Shown one piece after another: positions 3,236-52,801 of a DNA stretch of 64,000 nucleotides. This DNA is from Ganoderma boninense (taxonomy: Eukaryota > Basidiomycota > Agaricomycetes > Polyporales > Polyporaceae). The position numbers and the translations under genes were made by a program. The stretch spans positions 372,001 through 436,000 of the forward strand of contig CM035310.1 in assembly GCA_002900995.3 (NCBI GenBank), written 5' to 3'. The notes below the pieces were generated by a model. The model worked only from the letters and a program-made list of their open reading frames with translations, was not told the origin of the DNA and did no database searches. Position 1 is the stretch's first letter. Each line of letters starts with the position of its first letter.

Positions 3236-6200
3236 TCACAGACCGAATTCGCTAATCGCCTTCTGCACCTTCACGAGACGCGCTTTTTTAGCGGTCAGCG
3301 CCTTACGCTGCCCGGCAACGTGGGGGTCTTCGGCGAGGTAGAAGTCGCACTTCGACCTCGCATCCGGAGCACCCAGCCCGAGCTTCTCGAAGACACAGTT
3401 CTGCAAGCTCTCGCAGAAGGCGTACAAAAATTGCAGGTCGATCGTCATTGGGACGGAGTCAATGATCCGCTGCAAGGAGGTACGTTAACTGCTGGCGGAT
3501 CGTGGAAAGCCGGCGACCCCGTTCCGTACCTGGAAGGCGACATCGAAGTATGCTCGAACATCAGCTATAAGCTCGATTTCCATTTCGTACGTCTTGAGCA
3601 ACCGCCCGCCATCTCGCGGAGCGTAACGCTTCATAGGCATGCCACGCATCGGACGGCCAGCATTACTTTGACCAGGGGTAGGCGACGCCCTGGCTGAGGG
3701 CGCTTGAAATGGCAGTGATATCGGCTGGATCAATATATTTGACAGCGTTAGTTATAACGAATGCTGTTTTTATATACTCAATGCTTATTGACGGGTGCTC
3801 AAATATTTGGTGCGGCGGGCGGTCCCCTGGCGAGAACCAGATAAATATTCAAGCTCAGGCGTGAATCAAATATTTAGGGTGAGGTTCAAATATTTGAACC
3901 GGATAAAAAGGGCATTAATGGGGATTGAACCCGCGCACACACGGCTTTGTGAAGGACGTGAGCGATGTTCTAACTGGGCCATAAGGCCGATACATGGGTA
4001 CAAATTAATATCATTATGTCACGTCTTTTCAGCGCTTGTCCTACCATACTTGGTCACCTTCTACTCAACGCCGTTATGTCCAGCATTGTCCTCCTATCAA
4101 CCATTATTTAATATGAATAAAATCTTTGTTATAACTAAACTTAAAGGTCGTAGACTCCGACCTAAATATATCCAGTAGTTATTACTAGTACAACTTGTAC
4201 AAGTACCTTGAATCCGGGCCAGTGACTGTGCCAGTGCATAGTGGAATATTTTAAAATGCCTTCAAAAAAGGGAATTGACATCATCAAATACATACAAAGA
4301 TGAAAGATATTGCACCAGATGCTACTCTATAGGTGGTACATTTCTCTGACACTCTACTGAGGGGAAAGAGGAGCATTGGCATGTGTGGTAACAGGGGGTA
4401 CTAGTATGCACCTGCCACCAATTTGAGCCAGAACCAGCTACTGTCATTATTAGATATACAGTGAACATGGATGTAATATGGTCAAAGGTTGTGTCAGTAG
4501 AACCTGGACAAGCTACCTGCAGGGAATATTAGGGAATATTTCCCGGGAATGCTGGACATGACGGCGTTGAGTAGAAGGTGACCAAGTATGGTAGGACAAG
4601 CGCTGAAAAGACGTGACATAATGATATTAATTTGTACCCATGTATCGGCCTTATGGCCCAGTTAGAACATCGCTCACGTCCTTCACAAAGCCGTGTGTGC
4701 GCGGGTTCAATCCCCATTAATGCCCTTTTTATCCGGTTCAAATATTTGAACCTCACCCTAAATATTTGATTCACGCCTGAGCTTGAATATTTATCTGGTT
4801 CTCGCCAGGGGACCGCCCGCCGCACCAAATATTTGAGCACCCGTCAATAAGCATTGAGTATATAAAAACAGCATTCGTTATAACTAACGCTGTCAAATAT
4901 ATTTATCTAACCAATACTGGTGGAAATGGATTATCGCTGTCGCGCGCTTTGCAATTAGTAAAATCCGAGAACTTCTGAGCAGTAGGGGCCGCTGTCCCTG
5001 GAACCCCAGATCGCGGAGGTTGCGGGGTTGATCGAGGCTCTAACGGTGGCATCAGCACAGCGATTCAAAGGCAACTCAAAGATAATAATTGCCGACCTGT
5101 GGGAGGAGTAGGATCGTTGGGCGCCGACTCTTGAGATGAACCAACCAGGTTCTCGTCTGTCAGCGACTCCTGGTATAACTGCAGGTATTTGACCCGCCGT
5201 GAACCAAGGAAACCTTTGTTTTGAGTGTACAACAAGCGTGATTCGGATCGCACGACGTCTTGGATGCGGACCTCAGCCGCCTGGATGTGAGCAGACAGAT
5301 GATCCATGACGATCGACCTGGAACAAGTTAACCTTCAGTTCCGAAAGGCAAACATCGGACACAAGAGTTATACTGACAAAATGGCTCCCTTCAGGTTGCT
5401 GTATTGACCGAAGTGGAGGTCGATCGTGGCAGTAAGGGTGTCCTGGAAGGCTTTCTGGACTTCCTCGAAACACCGTATTACCGAACCCTCCCACGTGTCT
5501 TGAAAGGCTCGGATAAGTAACTCCTTCGCGGCATACGGAATGTTGTGCGGGAGCTGGCGCGTAATAGATCTGGATATGGAAATGAGCAACACCATACATA
5601 GGGAAGATTATGGCTGAGTACATACGCAGCGGCGCCAGCCTTGACGTTGTCCAAGTACACAGGCTTGATGGATTTGGAGGAGGCGTCCACAGGCAGGAAT
5701 GCCCGGACGTCGAAAGCGGGGTTCATGAATGATTCGCAGGGTACAAAAGGCGGTTGGGTGAGCGCAATCTCCCCCAGGAAATCCTCGTAGGTCCGATTGT
5801 TCCTCTGGACAAGCGCGGGATAAGCTGGGGAACCGTAGACGTAGTCCGCAACCTTGCTGCAGAAAGCGGAGACGATGTTCAGCACGGACAGATACGGCTC
5901 ATTTGCGACATCCCGTGGAAGCCTGCTGAGGTCCTTGTCGCACTCCTTCATTTGCTGAGCGACGTCGCGCAGCACCTTCGGGAAGCTGTTAGCAGCCGGC
6001 AGTCAGCTACGACTCAAGATTTGGGCAGGTGGGGCGGGCGACGCTTACGACTTCTGCATCATCTGGCTGAGCAATTCGCTCATCGTCTTCAGGAGGTTCT
6101 CTGTACCCAGGCGCTCCCGGCAGCTCAACTGCGCCCACGGTTCCTCCTTGTCAAAGAAGCGCTTCTCAGCCGCCCGTGCGTCTGCAGACGAGAGTCGCTT

Positions 6201-7385
6201 GGCGCGTTCTGCGTCGTCTGGTTGGCGAGTGCAGAAGTACCCGTGCTTCGTAGTGTGCTCCCGGCCCAGAAGGATGTCAACCCATTGCTTGCGCTTCTCT
6301 ATAGATCCGGAAGGAATGGTGTCGGGCTTCGTGAGAACACCTAACAGAGGGAGCCATAGTTACTTTTAGCACTGGCGATATCTCATCGGTCACTGTGGCA
6401 GCTTACCAATCGTGCGCTCGCCATGGGGATCCACTCGACGAGCGAGATGGGCAGCCTTCTGGTTCTGGATGTCGTCTACGAAGGACACCAATTAGACGAA
6501 CCTTCGGTCAAGAACCGGCCGACGAAACGTACCGCTCATGTTCAGCGTGACAAGAATCAGCGAATTTCCGCTGATGTAGGACACGACGAGGTCCTCCAAC
6601 AGCTTGACGACATGATCGTCGGCGTTTTGGATAATGCCTGAGCCCACACCAAGTCAGCGGCCGTCGGCAACGTATCATTAATCGCGAAGGCGGAAGCGTA
6701 CCAGGGAGGTCCACGAAGGACAAGTTCGTAAGGTCGGGTCCAGCCAGGTCGATGCAGACGACGTTACGCGAGAACCGGTCTCCCTTGACCGAGGCCTTCA
6801 GGTCGCCAAGAGACGCGTCCCCGAGAAGGACTGCCGCCTGTGCGCGGCGCAGCATCGGCTCTACGTCTTCCTTCTTCGTGATCCGCTGCTCAAATGGCAC
6901 CTCTTTGACCTCAGACAGCTTCATGCCCTTGTCGTCGTACTCCTTGCGGATGGAGATTCGACAAGACCACGCGTCTGGGCGAGTGCGTGAGCCGACACTC
7001 CATGGGCGTGCGGGTGCAAGTCCCGGCATCGCGGGGCACGCTGATCTGGGACACATAAACAATTTAGATAGATATCGTATACGATGAATGCCAAGCACAT
7101 TACTCACCCCGGTGAGAGCTTCGACTAAGCTGGACTTGCCGGCGCTCTGATTGCCGATGACGACGATGCGCGGGAGGTCAAGGTCAGTTTGAGCGCTTCC
7201 ATGAAACGTAAATCATCAGCCAAGGGTCGGAGCGGGAGCTCTCGGACAGACAGGACGACGTACCCTTCAGCACGAAGCTGGTTGAACAACGCATGGAACT
7301 CGTTCAACTTCTTCGCGAAGTCGGTGGCAGATATAGAGAAGGTCTCTGTCGCGGGCGACGTAGGCAACGAATCCGAGGATAGCAT
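3236..7385 (-). CDS. dynamin-like large GTPase
   Basis: Twelve exons can be joined: 7385-7264, 7195-7108, 7045-6702, 6637-6533, 6475-6407, 6340-6049, 5985-5626, 5569-5378, 5317-5097, 5039-4918, 3724-3530 and 3469-3236. They total 780 residues once one extra base in exon 3 is ignored. GTPase motifs are present in order: P-loop GNQSAGKSS (about residue 56), switch I RDAGTCTRTPMECRL, G3 DLPG, G4 TKPD. The helical stalk follows (TRQPDDAERAKRL, AYPALVQRN). A Pro-rich linker leads to a C-terminal GTPase effector domain (RRIID-type segment RIIDSVPMTIDLQFLYAF, then EKLGLG and YLAEDPHV). The family self-assembles on membranes and drives fission or fusion; this one lacks a PH domain, as in fungal Mx/Vps1-like members. 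The start at 7385 was chosen because it gives the usual short N-terminus before the P-loop. The frameshift lies between THSP and AWSCRI near 6,980. Intron 10 (3725-4917) is about 1.2 kb instead of about 65 nt because a palindromic element lies inside it. Confidence 0.85.
3738..4087 (+). repeat. left terminal inverted repeat of the palindromic element
   Basis: About 350 bp, matching the reverse complement of 4549-4897 with at most a few differences (for example CCGTTATG against CCGTCATG near the inner edge). Near-identity suggests a recent insertion or arm homogenisation. Confidence 0.85.
3910..3988 (-). ncRNA. tRNA-derived Pol III-type unit in left arm
   Basis: Mirror copy of the unit at 4647-4724, read on the minus strand towards the left end of the element, with a T5 run (AAAAA on the plus strand at 3905-3909) as possible terminator. 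The cloverleaf is imperfect, so this is a tRNA-derived relic or SINE-like promoter, not a functional tRNA gene. Confidence 0.4.
4549..4897 (-). repeat. right terminal inverted repeat of the palindromic element
   Basis: Inverted partner of 3738-4087. The inner edge is where the two arms stop matching, just after AATGCTGGACAT. Confidence 0.85.
4647..4724 (+). ncRNA. tRNA-derived Pol III-type unit in right arm
   Basis: Contains an A-box match TGGCCCAGTT, a B-box match GGTTCAATCCC about 50 nt later, a 6-of-7 acceptor-like pairing between GGCCTTA and TAATGCC, and a T5 terminator at about 4725-4729. An anticodon-like loop TTCACAA would read CAC (valine), but the T-stem pairs poorly. I read it as tRNA-derived, possibly supplying a Pol III promoter that fires outward from the arm. 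Transcription is inference. Confidence 0.4.
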
Positions 7386-16099: not shown

Positions 16100-19000
16100 A
16101 TGGTTAAGAAACGACTATCTCGTAAGGTCACGATCACTGGCCCAGCCAAGAGCCAGGCTATAGGAACATCCAAGATCCTGCGGCCGCTAGAAGAAGGAAA
16201 GCATGGAGCAAAGGCTCAGGCAGAGGCGCGGAAGCGGGCACAGGAGCGATTCACAGCGCTGACTGCGGGCACGTCGTCCCTGCAACGTCTCCTCCGTATG
16301 CTAATACCATGTGCACAGGCTTAGACTCTCAATCTCTCCGTGTTTTAGCTGAGCTTCGAGGTGATCCGACGGAATTTCCAGACGATCCCACCGATGCAGT
16401 GGTCGACTCGGTGATGGCCTTCGACACGGACCAGCTACCGGGAGATGAGGCATCCGAGGACGACCCAGGCTCCGGCCTTCGTGAGGACGAAGCAGTTGCG
16501 CACGCGCTTCGCGGCCTTCTCGACCCACGGTGAGCGGCCTTTGATCGCGCTCACCTGGTTTTACTCACGCGTACTGGACGCTAGCCTCCGGCGCCGACGC
16601 CTGAAGGACACCCGCACCTGGCGGCATCGCCTACACAATCTTGATATCCGGTGGCAGGAGATCCTCCCCCGCCTGACAGAGACCTACGTGCGCTGGAAAA
16701 CGCGTCATTCCGAACCTATCCCACCTGCATCCCCATCCGATGAGTACGACTTCAAAATTGACGTATTAGATATTGATACCTTAGACATGAACCGCCTAAT
16801 CCCGAGGCGAGGCGTTCCTGCAGTTGAGGCACTCATTTTAGAAGGATTCCTTGGTGCCACCCCTGAGAAGCCCACAATTGCGGTTTCACTTGCGGCGTTG
16901 GAACTATACCGCACCCTCAGGCTTGTAAAGCCCTCGCTCAGTGTTGAGGGATTTACCAAATTCTTATGCTATAAGTATTCGGTGAGTTCAAGTAATTATT
17001 GTCCCGCAGACGTTGAAACTAACTCAGCTTCGCGCGCCAGATCCCATATCGACGGCGCTTCCGAAGGGCGATAGCCGACTCCTTCGACGTCTATCTCACG
17101 ATTCTCGAGGCGGTCAGGCACCGCGTCCTCGCCGCGCTCGGTAGAAACACTCCGCACTGGAGGGTCCTTCATGGTTGCCCTGCATGCAGCTATAAGGTAT
17201 GTGGAAGTCATGCTAGCAGAATTTTTCGCTTATAATGGCATTGGCAGGTCCAAGGGGAAACCCCACCAACCTTTGCTCGCATGGTGGTCATGGATGGGAA
17301 CAACTCCCTTAAGCGCTTCGCGCCCATCGGCAATCGCGCAGTGGGGGATACACGGATCTTCGAAAGTGACTATTACCTCCCCGCGGAGTTTGTTGACACG
17401 TTCGCGAACGAGGTGAAGAACCGACAGACCCAGCCACATGTCGAGGTTCCAGAGCACATCGATGGCGAGATCATCAATGACGATGCAGACAGCGATTGGG
17501 GGGACGAGGACACAGAAGGGGATCCCACGGATGGCGCTCCGGACTCCGCATGCGCAGCGAACTGGAAGGCCGCGGCCAAGGACGAGAAAAAGCGTACCTG
17601 GTCGGCATTCTGGGAGACCGGCATCTTCGCGAGCGCGTGTAGGCATGGCCGGATCGTGTGGCTGATCGACATGATCAAGAGTGGAGAGTTGTAAGTTGAT
17701 CGAAATCTCGGTTGTCGTTGCACAGCTCTGACGTACCGCTGACCAGGGCAAAGCTTCCCCTCGCGACTGTGGCGAAGCTCCTAGAGGTTGTCCAAGAGAA
17801 CATCCTTGTGGGTTTCGACATCGGCTGCGTCTTCAAGACAACATTGGCGAACAGCTCCCTCGGCCCAAAGTTCAAGGCTAGCGGCTCCCGAGTATGCGTC
17901 AATGCGTTTCACGGATACTCGCACTCGTATCCCTGCCAGGTCCAGCATCATCCCAACGTCATCGACGGGATCGGGCTGGAAGATCTTGAGACCCTCGAGC
18001 GCACGTTCAGCAAATCCAATGAACTGGCTGCCGTTACCCGATTCGCATCTGCTTACCGTCGCCGTGCGCTCATCCACATGTTCTTTCAGCAATACGACGA
18101 GGAGAAGTATACAGCGCTTGGCGCGATGCTATATGACAATTATATTCAAGCTATCGATATAATTCAAGACCTAACTCCGAAACTCGTCGACTCCCTGCGC
18201 GTCCTTGACATTGACCTTGCAACGCTCAAAGCATGGGAGGCCGAGGAGCAAGATTACTTCAAGAACCTTCGTGATGAGGCATCAGAGGACGTCTTCGCTG
18301 TGGCGTACGTCGAGGGGCTTCAAGAGCTCCGAGGATTGAAGTATGTTCCTCCACGCATTCATGCGAGATCTCGGCTACTAATCTTGATTTCATTGAGGAC
18401 GCAACTTGATGGCACCAACATGCGCTTCTTGGCACAGGTTCCGACCGATTACCAATTCACGATTACAACCGGCGCCACCGACTACGCCGGCGATACCTCC
18501 ACGACTCGGCGGCTTGAGCGGGAGCGGCGCGACCTCAAAGAGCGTATTCAGAGGCTCAACATCGAGCTCATTCAAATGGAAAAGAGCATGAATATACACG
18601 ATAGGTGGGAGCCGGGGGACTGTCAGTACCAAGAGACCCTCAAGTACATCGCGACGCGCCGCTACCAGCAGGCCTTAGGTCGCCTTCAGCGCCTAGTGAT
18701 CCAACGCCTTTTTGAATTGCAGAAAATGAATCTGTCTCACACTGGTACGCCGCCTTCAATGGAGCCATGCCTAAACTCTAAATTCGCGTTTTTATGTAGC
18801 TTATAGGGTCCGAACCCACATCGCCAAAAGCCTGCAGAAACGTTGTAAGACTATTCGCGCAGCAGTCAAGGCATACAACGCTGCAGCGCTAGCCCTCGAT
18901 CCTCCCCGTCCCACGCTCGACTGGTCGCGAGTCTCCCATTTCAGCTTTTTGGAAGAATTCACACTCCTCAATGACACCCGCAATGACATCCGGGACAAGG

Positions 19001-22872: not shown

Positions 22873-22972
22873 NNNNNNNNNNNNNNNNNNNNNNNNNNNN
22901 NNNNNNNNNNNNNNNNNNNNNNNNNNNNNNNNNNNNNNNNNNNNNNNNNNNNNNNNNNNNNNNNNNNNNNNN
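22873..22972. other. assembly gap 1 (100 N)
   Basis: Exactly 100 N, the convention for a gap of unknown size. Open frames that cross it are not real. Confidence 0.99.
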
Positions 22973-35783: not shown

Positions 35784-38700
35784 TCACTGGAGGCCAGAAC
35801 CGGACATATTGCCTAAGATCGCGTTGGTGCTAACGCCAGGCCAGATCTCGAAGACGTCGTCCACGTCGCACACCGTATCATTGTCGCTTGGAAGCTGACA
35901 CAATCGTGTAAGTATGATCGACTGCCCGAGTCGTATTGAAAAGATATCAGCGTGCTTACCGTCCCATTCACCGCATATGCGAGGTAGACAGCATTGAGAC
36001 ACGTCGACGCGCCAAGATTTGCTGCGGAGGTGTGCTACAATGCCGTAAGGTTTTGGTGAGCAAAATGTACAGGCCAGCATAAGTATATGCAAGGGACTCA
36101 CTCCAAAGCCGTTCAACCGGACCAACTTGGCAGAGTCACCCAACTCATCTGCAAGAGCTTGCGCGCCAGAAAACGGCGTGACAGGATCGTACTGGATTCC
36201 CAAACGCCACGTCAGGGAACAGATAAACAGTGTGCATGGAGGGTGTGCGCACCGTATTGCCTATCACCAGGATCGGGTTCGCGAGTTTCTTGTTGAAGGG
36301 TCCTTCGTATCGCTCAACGGCGCGCTCCGGCCAGAAGGAACAGAGGTAGACATCAGACGGCCACACAGAAGCGACTAGTGTTCAGACGGAAGAATAAGCT
36401 GAGTTTCTACTTGCCAGCAGAGTTTGTGAACGTACACATGTGAGAGATGTTTTGCGAAGCGGAAACGATCGCCTCGAAAACCTCGGTCATGGTCACGTTT
36501 CCCGCAGAGTCCTTGCTGTCCGCGCATGTAATGGCGCCTGAGGTGTACGGTACTGTCTCATTCTCTGCACGCTTGACCAAGCTACACAAGAAACCCCAGA
36601 TCGTCAGCGCCACACACACGACCCTACGCACAGGGGAAGCGTACCTCCGGCCAAGTGATTGAGACCGCTTGGTGACGTTACTGCTGCCTTGAGACTCGGC
36701 TTCGACAACCTGGAGCACCTCGGGAAACACGCTGTTCGTCAAACTTTGCCACTGCGGCGGCCAGTACATGTACGCGTACAGCTCGGCTTGCCGCGACCCT
36801 CGTCAGCACCGAGATGTTTTATGCAATCCCAACTTGGCTACTTACGTCGCAGCTGGCCAGATGTCAAGGGTACGGACGAATTCTTCTGCGCTGCGTCGTA
36901 AGCCGTGTTGAAAATGGTCTGGATGGTTTTGGCGACATCGGCAGGAGACTGTCCCTCTGAGCATAGAGCTAATCCGGCCGGTCCTGCGAGGGCGCAGCCC
37001 GTGACGAATCCCTCGTACACGTCGTCTCATTGTGCATTTGGTGCTCCCAGCCCCTGTAAAGTCGCAGTTAATTTTGGTTTGAAACCCAGATGCCCGCTCC
37101 TGACGCACTAAGGGAGAGTTTCGATCGACCCGAAAAAAACTGGGGTCAATCACACCGTCGAGGATGACTCTGACCGATCACGCTAAAAAACGAGTGAGTG
37201 AGCTCTAGCCTGGTGGGCACTCACGCGGAACATACGCACATCCGGGAACACTAGACCCATGTCACCGGTCAGCTTTTACGCCCCAGATTCGAAGAGTATA
37301 AGGGAGGAGCACGTACTGTTGACGACACAAAACGAGGGATGGTGCCATAAGAATACCCCCAGTAGTTGATAAGGAGCTTCAGGACCATCCACGCGTCGAC
37401 CAGTGCGACCAGATCACGGACCGTGGCCGGCAGTTCCGATGTACTGAGGTATTTGCCATCAGAGTGCTCCTGGCACTTTTGCCGAGTTCCACGTACTTCT
37501 TCTGCCAATGTGTCTGCCTGCGCGAGGAGCGCGTCGATGTCGGACTGGTCGGTGAAGTTCCCGGTCATCCTCGATCCCGCTGAGCTCGATGGTGCCGTTG
37601 AAAGAAGGCGTCGTATTCGTCGACGCTGTCGAAGCAGTACACGTCTCCCGGGCTACACGACAGGCATCGTAATTAGCGCTTGTACACGGTCCAAAACCCA
37701 CAACAACTTACATCGATAGCGAGCCGACCCCACGGGGTCCCAGCTGACGATGTCGCTATATATCCCCCAGTTACCGTTGAGGAGGTAGCTGGCGGATGGG
37801 GCTGGTGCTCAGCTCTGCTAAGCAGACTGGCCAGTCCACCTGCCACGACAGGCGATATCAAGCAAGACTCCACGAGAAGGTAGATATCGCATGCATGCCT
37901 GGATTCAGGAAGTAGGTTCCACGGCGCTCGCCGGTCGCATTGCCTTGATGACGGCGATGCGNNNNNNNNNNNNNNNNNNNNNNNNNNNNNNNNNNNNNNN
38001 NNNNNNNNNNNNNNNNNNNNNNNNNNNNNNNNNNNNNNNNNNNNNNNNNNNNNNNNNNNNNAAGTAAAAGAAGGGAACTAAAACCCGCCCGGCCAATTTC
38101 CCGAGCACCCAAATTCTGCAAGAGCTTGCGGGGCCAAAAAACGGGGGTGGACAGGATCGTATGACAAGCTACACAAGAAACCCCAGATCGTCAGCGCCAC
38201 ACACACGACCCTACGCACAGGGGAAGCGTACCTCCGGCCAAGTGATTGAGACCGCTTGGTGACGTTACTGCTGCCTTGAGACTCGGCTTCGACAACCTGG
38301 AGCACCTCGGGAAACACGCTGTTCGTCAAACTTTGCCACTGCGGCGGCCAGTACATGTACGCGTACAGCTCGGCTTGCCGCGACCCTCGTCAGCACCGAG
38401 ATGTTTTATGCAATCCCAACTTGGCTACTTACGTCGCAGCTGGCCAGATGTCAAGGGTACGGACGAATTCTTCTGCGCTGCGTCGTAAGCCGTGTTGAAA
38501 ATGGTCTGGATGGTTTTGTCGACATCGGCAGGAGACTGTCCCTCTGAGGCAATAGAGCAACCGGCCGGTCCTGCGAGGGCGCAGCCCGTGACGAATCCCT
38601 CGTACACGTCGTCTGCATTGTGCATTTGGTGCTCCCAGCCCTGTAAAGTTCGCAGTTAATTTTTGTTTGAAACCCAGATGCCCGCTCCTGACGCACTAGG

Positions 38701-52701: not shown

Positions 52702-52801
52702 NNNNNNNNNNNNNNNNNNNNNNNNNNNNNNNNNNNNNNNNNNNNNNNNNNNNNNNNNNNNNNNNNNNNNNNNNNNNNNNNNNNNNNNNNNNNNNNNNNN
52801 N
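52702..52801. other. assembly gap 3 (100 N)
   Basis: Exactly 100 N. The DUF6534 gene enters it from the left and an LTR-like repeat begins at its right edge. Confidence 0.99.

Follow-up and report, generated by a model that had tools for sequence, protein, structure and literature searches.

The window analysed here (the whole stretch of 64,000 nucleotides) carries a dynamin-like GTPase gene at 3236..7385 on the minus strand. Our exon model of this gene contains eleven exons, the second-last of which is split by an element of 1,210 bp (3713..4922, A end to B end). The closest proteins, among the best 120 of 868 matches, come from Ganoderma adspersum (80%) and G. sinense (78%), a species for which small-RNA and methylation data are on record (PMC4457147). 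An earlier sequence-only reading had described a conserved dynamin gene; exon 3 (6702-7045) has a one-nucleotide frameshift relative to Ganoderma homologues. The frameshift is either real or an assembly error, and because of it the dynamin-like gene may be dead; a PDB search with a frame of exon 3 gave no match. Elsewhere in the window lie KDZ transposase exons (17281-18806; PF18758, E 5.7e-27 and 2.3e-39) and three runs of exactly 100 N each (22873-22972, 37962-38061 and 52702-52801), which are probably scaffold gaps.

The element consists of two inverted arms of 369 nt each (3719..4087 and 4548..4916), 99% complementary, with a spacer of 460 nt between them (4088..4547). Near-identical inverted arms of about 350 bp had already been recognised by the sequence-only reading, which placed the termini at 3738 and 4897 and took TATA as flanking sequence. 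When the flanks of the copies described below were compared, the copies were still alike beyond that boundary (TTTGACAGCG), and outside it lay a fixed A end, CAGTGATATCGGCTGGATCAATATA (3713..3737, plus strand), and a fixed B end, CACCAGTATTGGTTAGGTAAATATA (4898..4922, minus strand; minus-strand reading CACCAGTATTGGTTAGATAAATATA). The true ends are thus 3713 and 4922, 25 nt farther out, and both are common to 6/6 copies and, fused, to a micro-copy; TATA belongs to the element and is present across copies. The target-site duplication is a 7-bp GAAATGG (3706..3712 on the left, 4923..4929 on the right) and not the TA-type duplication that had been proposed, and a TA-duplicating element was rejected on these grounds.

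To collect further copies, we searched the host assembly (55.6 Mb, 74 contigs); because searches of this kind pass over frequent words and give scores to the best candidates only, copy counts are lower bounds. At least 14 matches were obtained, of which 13 came from six copies (the window copy and further copies on C11, C2, C5, C14 and C4) and one from a related end on C12. A pattern search of the assembly (≤3 mismatches) located 6 A ends and 7 B ends, whereas the reversed control patterns gave 0 sites. The seventh B end (C1:2655043-2655071) is part of a 63-bp micro-copy (C1:2655009-2655071) in which the A end is fused to the B end. The search for copies with the same ends, which the sequence-only reading had put forward as a check, therefore returned five more two-ended copies together with this micro-copy. 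The spacer was matched only in the 6 copies.

Perfect 7-bp duplications flank the window copy (GAAATGG) and the copies on C11 (AACGAGA), C2 (TCTCCCG), C5 (TCTGAGC) and C4 (ATGTTTT), as well as the C1 micro-copy (TCGTCGT on either side), and the duplication on C14 is imperfect (CCACTCG/CCACTTG, 6/7 bases). Perfect duplications accordingly occur in 5/6 two-ended copies, in 6/7 with the C1 micro-copy and in 7/8 insertions when the C12 element is included. Termini are 5'-CA..TG-3' in the copies and in the C12 element, with the exception of C4, which ends in TA rather than TG. Six separately located copies, all flanked by a 7-bp duplication (at 6/7 bases on C14), are more than chance would give, and the palindrome is a mobile element. 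Long inverted arms round a spacer, found in several copies with target duplications, are the anatomy of foldback or long-TIR non-autonomous elements.

The copies are partly damaged: C5 and C2 contain nested insertions and C4 is without part of its B arm. The nested element in the left arm of the C5 copy is 1,194 bp long (ends CATCAGGAATC..GATTCCTGATG, TG on both sides), and its ends resemble the termini given for PlavakaB in the part of PMC12730594 consulted. The piece nested in the spacer of the C2 copy is 438 bp long (TGTGAAGG..CATCAACA, AAAAT on both sides) and by eye resembles a solo LTR. The C1 micro-copy, which sits in a 155-codon open frame, may have lost its interior after insertion or during abortive excision.

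The arms of a single copy differ from each other by 0.3% in the window, 0.8% on C11, 0.3% on C2, 1.5% on C5 (over 260 nt) and 1.1% on C14, and between these five younger copies arms are 1.7-6.9% apart. Provided that the common ancestor had both arms, this likeness within copies means that the arms must have been homogenised within each of the five younger copies, presumably by gene conversion. Alignment of the A-end and spacer strands showed that the spacer is flipped relative to the ends in 2/6 copies (C5 and C14), a pattern that recombination between inverted arms is expected to produce. Within the aligned arm, variation is lowest in the outer 100 nt (4/100 sites versus 35/225, p = 0.003), as would be expected of transposase-binding ends. 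The arms of the C4 copy are 13.5-17.4% from the arms of the other copies and 16.4% from each other, and this copy looks old. Against the window arm, 33/50 and 29/39 of the differences in C4 are C>T or G>A, a bias of the kind left by methylcytosine decay or RIP-like mutation.

Each arm contains a 79-nt unit with an A box (TGGCCCAGTTAG) and a B box (GGTTCAATCCC) whose starts are 50 nt apart, followed directly by T5 and pointing outward; the boxes, the T5 run and their direction agree with the sequence-only reading. The left unit occupies 3910..3988 on the minus strand (A box 3981-3970, B box 3931-3921, T5 at 3905..3909) and the right unit 4647..4725 on the plus strand (A box 4654-4665, B box 4704-4714, T5 at 4726..4730). 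Boxes were searched for at ≤1 and ≤2 mismatches to the consensus A and B boxes. An A+B pair was found only in the element, with 0 elsewhere in the window background (125,540 nt, both strands counted), and among 3000 Markov-shuffled arms the pair occurred in 6 and the pair with T4 behind it in 1.

No tRNA was called by ARAGORN with default settings in the window, or by Rfam at the gathering threshold over the whole window and at E ≤ 5 over 3700-4950. At relaxed settings, ARAGORN labelled the unit tRNA-Val(CAC) rather than tRNA-Ala, but it also reported further tRNAs in the element that are doubtless spurious, for which reason we used a covariance model built from 16 host tRNAs instead (E-values from models of this type are approximate). 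Under this model, 10 arms of 5 copies scored 14.3-26.9 bits (window 21.4) and the next match in the 93,705 bases searched scored 9.0 bits; with filters off, the two window units, 3910-3988 (minus) and 4647-4725 (plus), scored 21.3 bits and the next match 5.2 bits. Neither arm of the oldest copy, C4, was matched by the host-tRNA model, and in the C12 region the model found no tRNA unit, only a single partial match of 8.2 bits. The tRNA check of 4640-4735 called for by the sequence-only reading is thereby positive with the host-tRNA model (4647-4725) and negative with standard ARAGORN and Rfam.

Aligned to a host tRNA-Ala gene, the unit scored 25.8, against a best score of 17.5 outside the element among 42,255 window 80-mers (the element's own included). 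We also compared the unit with 40 host tRNAs, sampled from 63 matches that were themselves scored among 1495 first-look candidates. All 5 host tRNA-Ala genes ranked first in this sample (20.3-25.8; next 17.0), which contains 17 tRNA-Cys and one untyped gene and has many amino-acid families missing, so that closeness to Ala refers to the sampled tRNAs only. Folded alone, the unit gave no cloverleaf (z -1.85 for the window, z -0.92 for the C14 copy). Variation in the boxes and T run (2/32 sites versus 35/225 in the inner arm, p = 0.12) was not significantly low in a test confined to the five younger copies, with both C4 arms dropped and 260 nt contributed by the C5 left arm. Judged by its sequence, the unit is tRNA-derived and, among those sampled, closest to tRNA-Ala; the earlier description of a foldback-type mobile element whose arms carry tRNA-derived units was right. 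A working tRNA gene was considered and rejected, as the unit is found only by the host-tRNA model and relaxed ARAGORN and standard ARAGORN and Rfam are negative. The suggestion that outward Pol III transcripts feed host sequence finds no support: the T5 run directly behind each unit, about 190 nt before the end of the element is reached, may stop transcription.

The related end on C12 belongs to an element of 21,356 bp (C12:449096-470451) with perfect 7-bp duplications (GATAGTA) and CA..TG termini. Its A and B ends are 80% identical to the outermost 95 nt of the window element on the left-arm side and the outermost 97 nt on the right-arm side, respectively, and are themselves inverted repeats from about 9 nt inward (85% over 92 nt). 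Among its coding sequences are a KDZ domain (E 3.4e-22), a CxC2 domain (E 6.2e-23) and a TET/JBP-like frame, the last with a Tet_JBP match (E 1.1e-7, 31.6 bits) below the curated threshold of 34.9. By eye, the sequence flanking the C12 element resembles a Gypsy integrase frame. TET+ Kyakuja elements are reported to have 7-bp duplications and CA..TG termini, and Kyakuja is the only TET+ lineage reported from the Polyporales, the order of Ganoderma (PMC12730594, in the part consulted). On the domains and ends found, the C12 element appears nearly to fit this description. The same part of that paper describes Kyakuja as being without TIRs, whereas both the element and its C12 relative have inverted ends, and we therefore use the label Kyakuja-type rather than Kyakuja.

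With ends only 80% identical to those of the element, the C12 element may not be its helper. A genome search found no places like the C12 left end besides the C12 element's own two ends, and the genome searches with the A and B ends and with the C12 ends found no helper with ends closer than those on C12. KDZ matches are plentiful in the assembly (152, counted exon by exon), so KDZ helpers for the element are plausible.

At the insertion site, removal of the element joins 5039-4923 and 3705-3530 into one open frame, which aligns to the G. adspersum protein (DNPFQAPS versus NKPFPQPS). This runs counter to the sequence-only reading, in which the element occupied an intron of the dynamin gene; since the element-free site reads through, it is unlikely that an intron already existed at precisely this position. 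From this open, G. adspersum-aligned frame, insertion into an exon rather than an intron is most likely. G. sinense is without residues at the site and more distant relatives are gapped there, from which the site is, as far as the alignments indicate, a variable linker. A small host intron just upstream of the site is possible, and G. adspersum is without 8 residues there. The genome search turned up neither a dynamin allele without the insertion nor a closely related DNA paralogue of the site. Unspliced, the dynamin frame meets a stop six codons into the element.

Given an exonic insertion, one alternative is introner-like behaviour, whereby the element was inserted in an exon and is spliced out, thereby forming a new intron. 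In the B-to-A orientation, which is that of both the dynamin copy and the C5 copy, either candidate donor combined with a CCAG acceptor leaves a multiple of three nucleotides including the duplication (24 nt with the sites of the sequence-only reading, 30 nt with the inner donor), no new stop arises in the dynamin or C5 frame, and CTAAC lies about 22 nt before the CCAG acceptor. The earlier claim of usable splice sites thus holds in that the frame would be kept on splicing and falters on the donors: GTATTG reaches 0.35 bits and GTTAGA 0.84 bits, whereas ten other donors in this gene lie at 4.7-8.2 bits, and 145 and 102, respectively, of 247 regional GTs score at least as high, by a matrix derived from only those 10 donors. 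The 30-nt residual intron that had been envisaged is composed of the element's own outer ends. At C14 and the C1 micro-copy, moreover, the longest open frames run in the A-to-B orientation, in which the element end is without AG. These two frames have no Pfam match and may not be genes, whereas homology supports a gene at the dynamin site only; frames at C11, C2 and C4 (75-126 codons) were judged uninformative by eye. On balance, we consider introner-like removal unlikely.

The origin of the element can be weighed in the same manner. A tRNA-derived SINE, or a head-to-head pair of SINEs, would account for a tRNA-like unit with A and B boxes and would not be a DNA transposon at all. In the assembly, the unit was found at E ≤ 1 only in 12 arms of the element, and no SINE relatives or independently dispersed unit copies were found elsewhere (best candidates scored in both cases); the CA..TG ends are defined, the 7-bp duplication is fixed, and the ends resemble those of the transposase-bearing C12 element, all of which make a SINE origin highly improbable. 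The duplication length would also suit other superfamilies, as hAT7 makes 7-bp duplications (PMC12730594, part consulted) and the P-superfamily element Galileo combines 7-bp duplications with foldback-like copies and long TIRs that exchange sequence (PMC3573991, part consulted). Here again the ends resemble those of an element encoding KDZ and CxC2 domains, and membership of hAT7 or of the P superfamily is very unlikely. Near-perfect palindromes can also arise as assembly artefacts. Six copies at separate loci, with arms that differ within each copy and with target duplications, leave hardly any probability for a fold-back chimera of this kind.

We conclude that the element is very probably a non-autonomous Kyakuja-type (KDZ group) DNA transposon of foldback shape, with captured tRNA-Ala-like units, in a Ganoderma-like fungus. 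Such an element would keep Kyakuja-type ends on two long inverted arms round its 460-nt spacer and would depend on a KDZ transposase acting in trans for its cut-and-paste movement. An ancestor would have captured a tRNA-Ala-like unit once, the unit, now decayed, having been duplicated along with the arms. Recombination of one arm with the other would keep the arms alike within a copy and sometimes invert the spacer. The window copy would have landed in the dynamin-like gene, most likely in an exon. A short foldback element would in this way be linked, by its ends, to a KDZ/Kyakuja-type transposon.

More speculatively, and in our estimate with the odds against it, the doubled units could be working TFIIIC/Pol III sites used by the transposon, keeping its ends open or forming a chromatin boundary and so aiding escape from silencing; in the same tentative joint reading, such escape would parallel the TET/JBP-like gene of the large C12 relative. 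If this were true, the element would be, to our knowledge, the first DNA transposon known to have acquired a Pol III promoter within its inverted arms, and if the units bind TFIIIC it would provide a natural setting in which to test whether Pol III factors are used by transposons to counter silencing.

Titles and abstract openings retrieved for foldback elements or MITEs with tRNA or Pol III, non-autonomous Kyakuja, KDZ MITEs and Ganoderma MITEs (best-listed matches, from a scope that took in few subscription journals) named no DNA transposon whose inverted arms contain tRNA-derived units. Comparison with known systems is based on the parts of the cited papers that were consulted. The element shares with TET+ Kyakuja (PMC12730594) the 7-bp duplication and CA..TG termini, and an element with KDZ, CxC2 and TET/JBP-like sequences and related ends is present in the same genome; unlike TET+ Kyakuja, it is 1.2 kb long, has no transposase, and has long inverted arms and tRNA-derived units. 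KDZ1-KDZ3 of Cryptococcus (PMC12810828) are likewise basidiomycete KDZ DNA transposons with TIRs (139-241 bp), but are about 9-11 kb long, carry transposase genes and make 4-8 bp duplications; in that study, no clearly non-autonomous copies were seen to move. IR-L and IR-R of S. pombe (PMC4502379) are also inverted-repeat elements with B boxes, but form a host chromatin boundary at the mating-type locus and are not transposons. The nearest precedent for the anatomy is Galileo of Drosophila (PMC3573991), a member of the P superfamily whose non-autonomous copies of long TIRs are foldback-like, with 7-bp duplications and exchange of sequence among TIRs; its transposase is unrelated, and no tRNA-derived unit is described in the portion of the text consulted. 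The nearest precedent for the capture is provided by Helenus and Ajax (PMC10886601), non-autonomous LTR TRIMs with captured tRNA or 5S sequence that are found in rust fungi among others and are conserved round the promoter boxes, with structures that do not support a working tRNA. Helenus and Ajax are LTR retrotransposons with the unit in direct LTRs, whereas the element described here is a DNA transposon with the unit in its inverted arms; capture of tRNA sequence, familiar from SINEs and LTR TRIMs, would thereby be extended to such arms.
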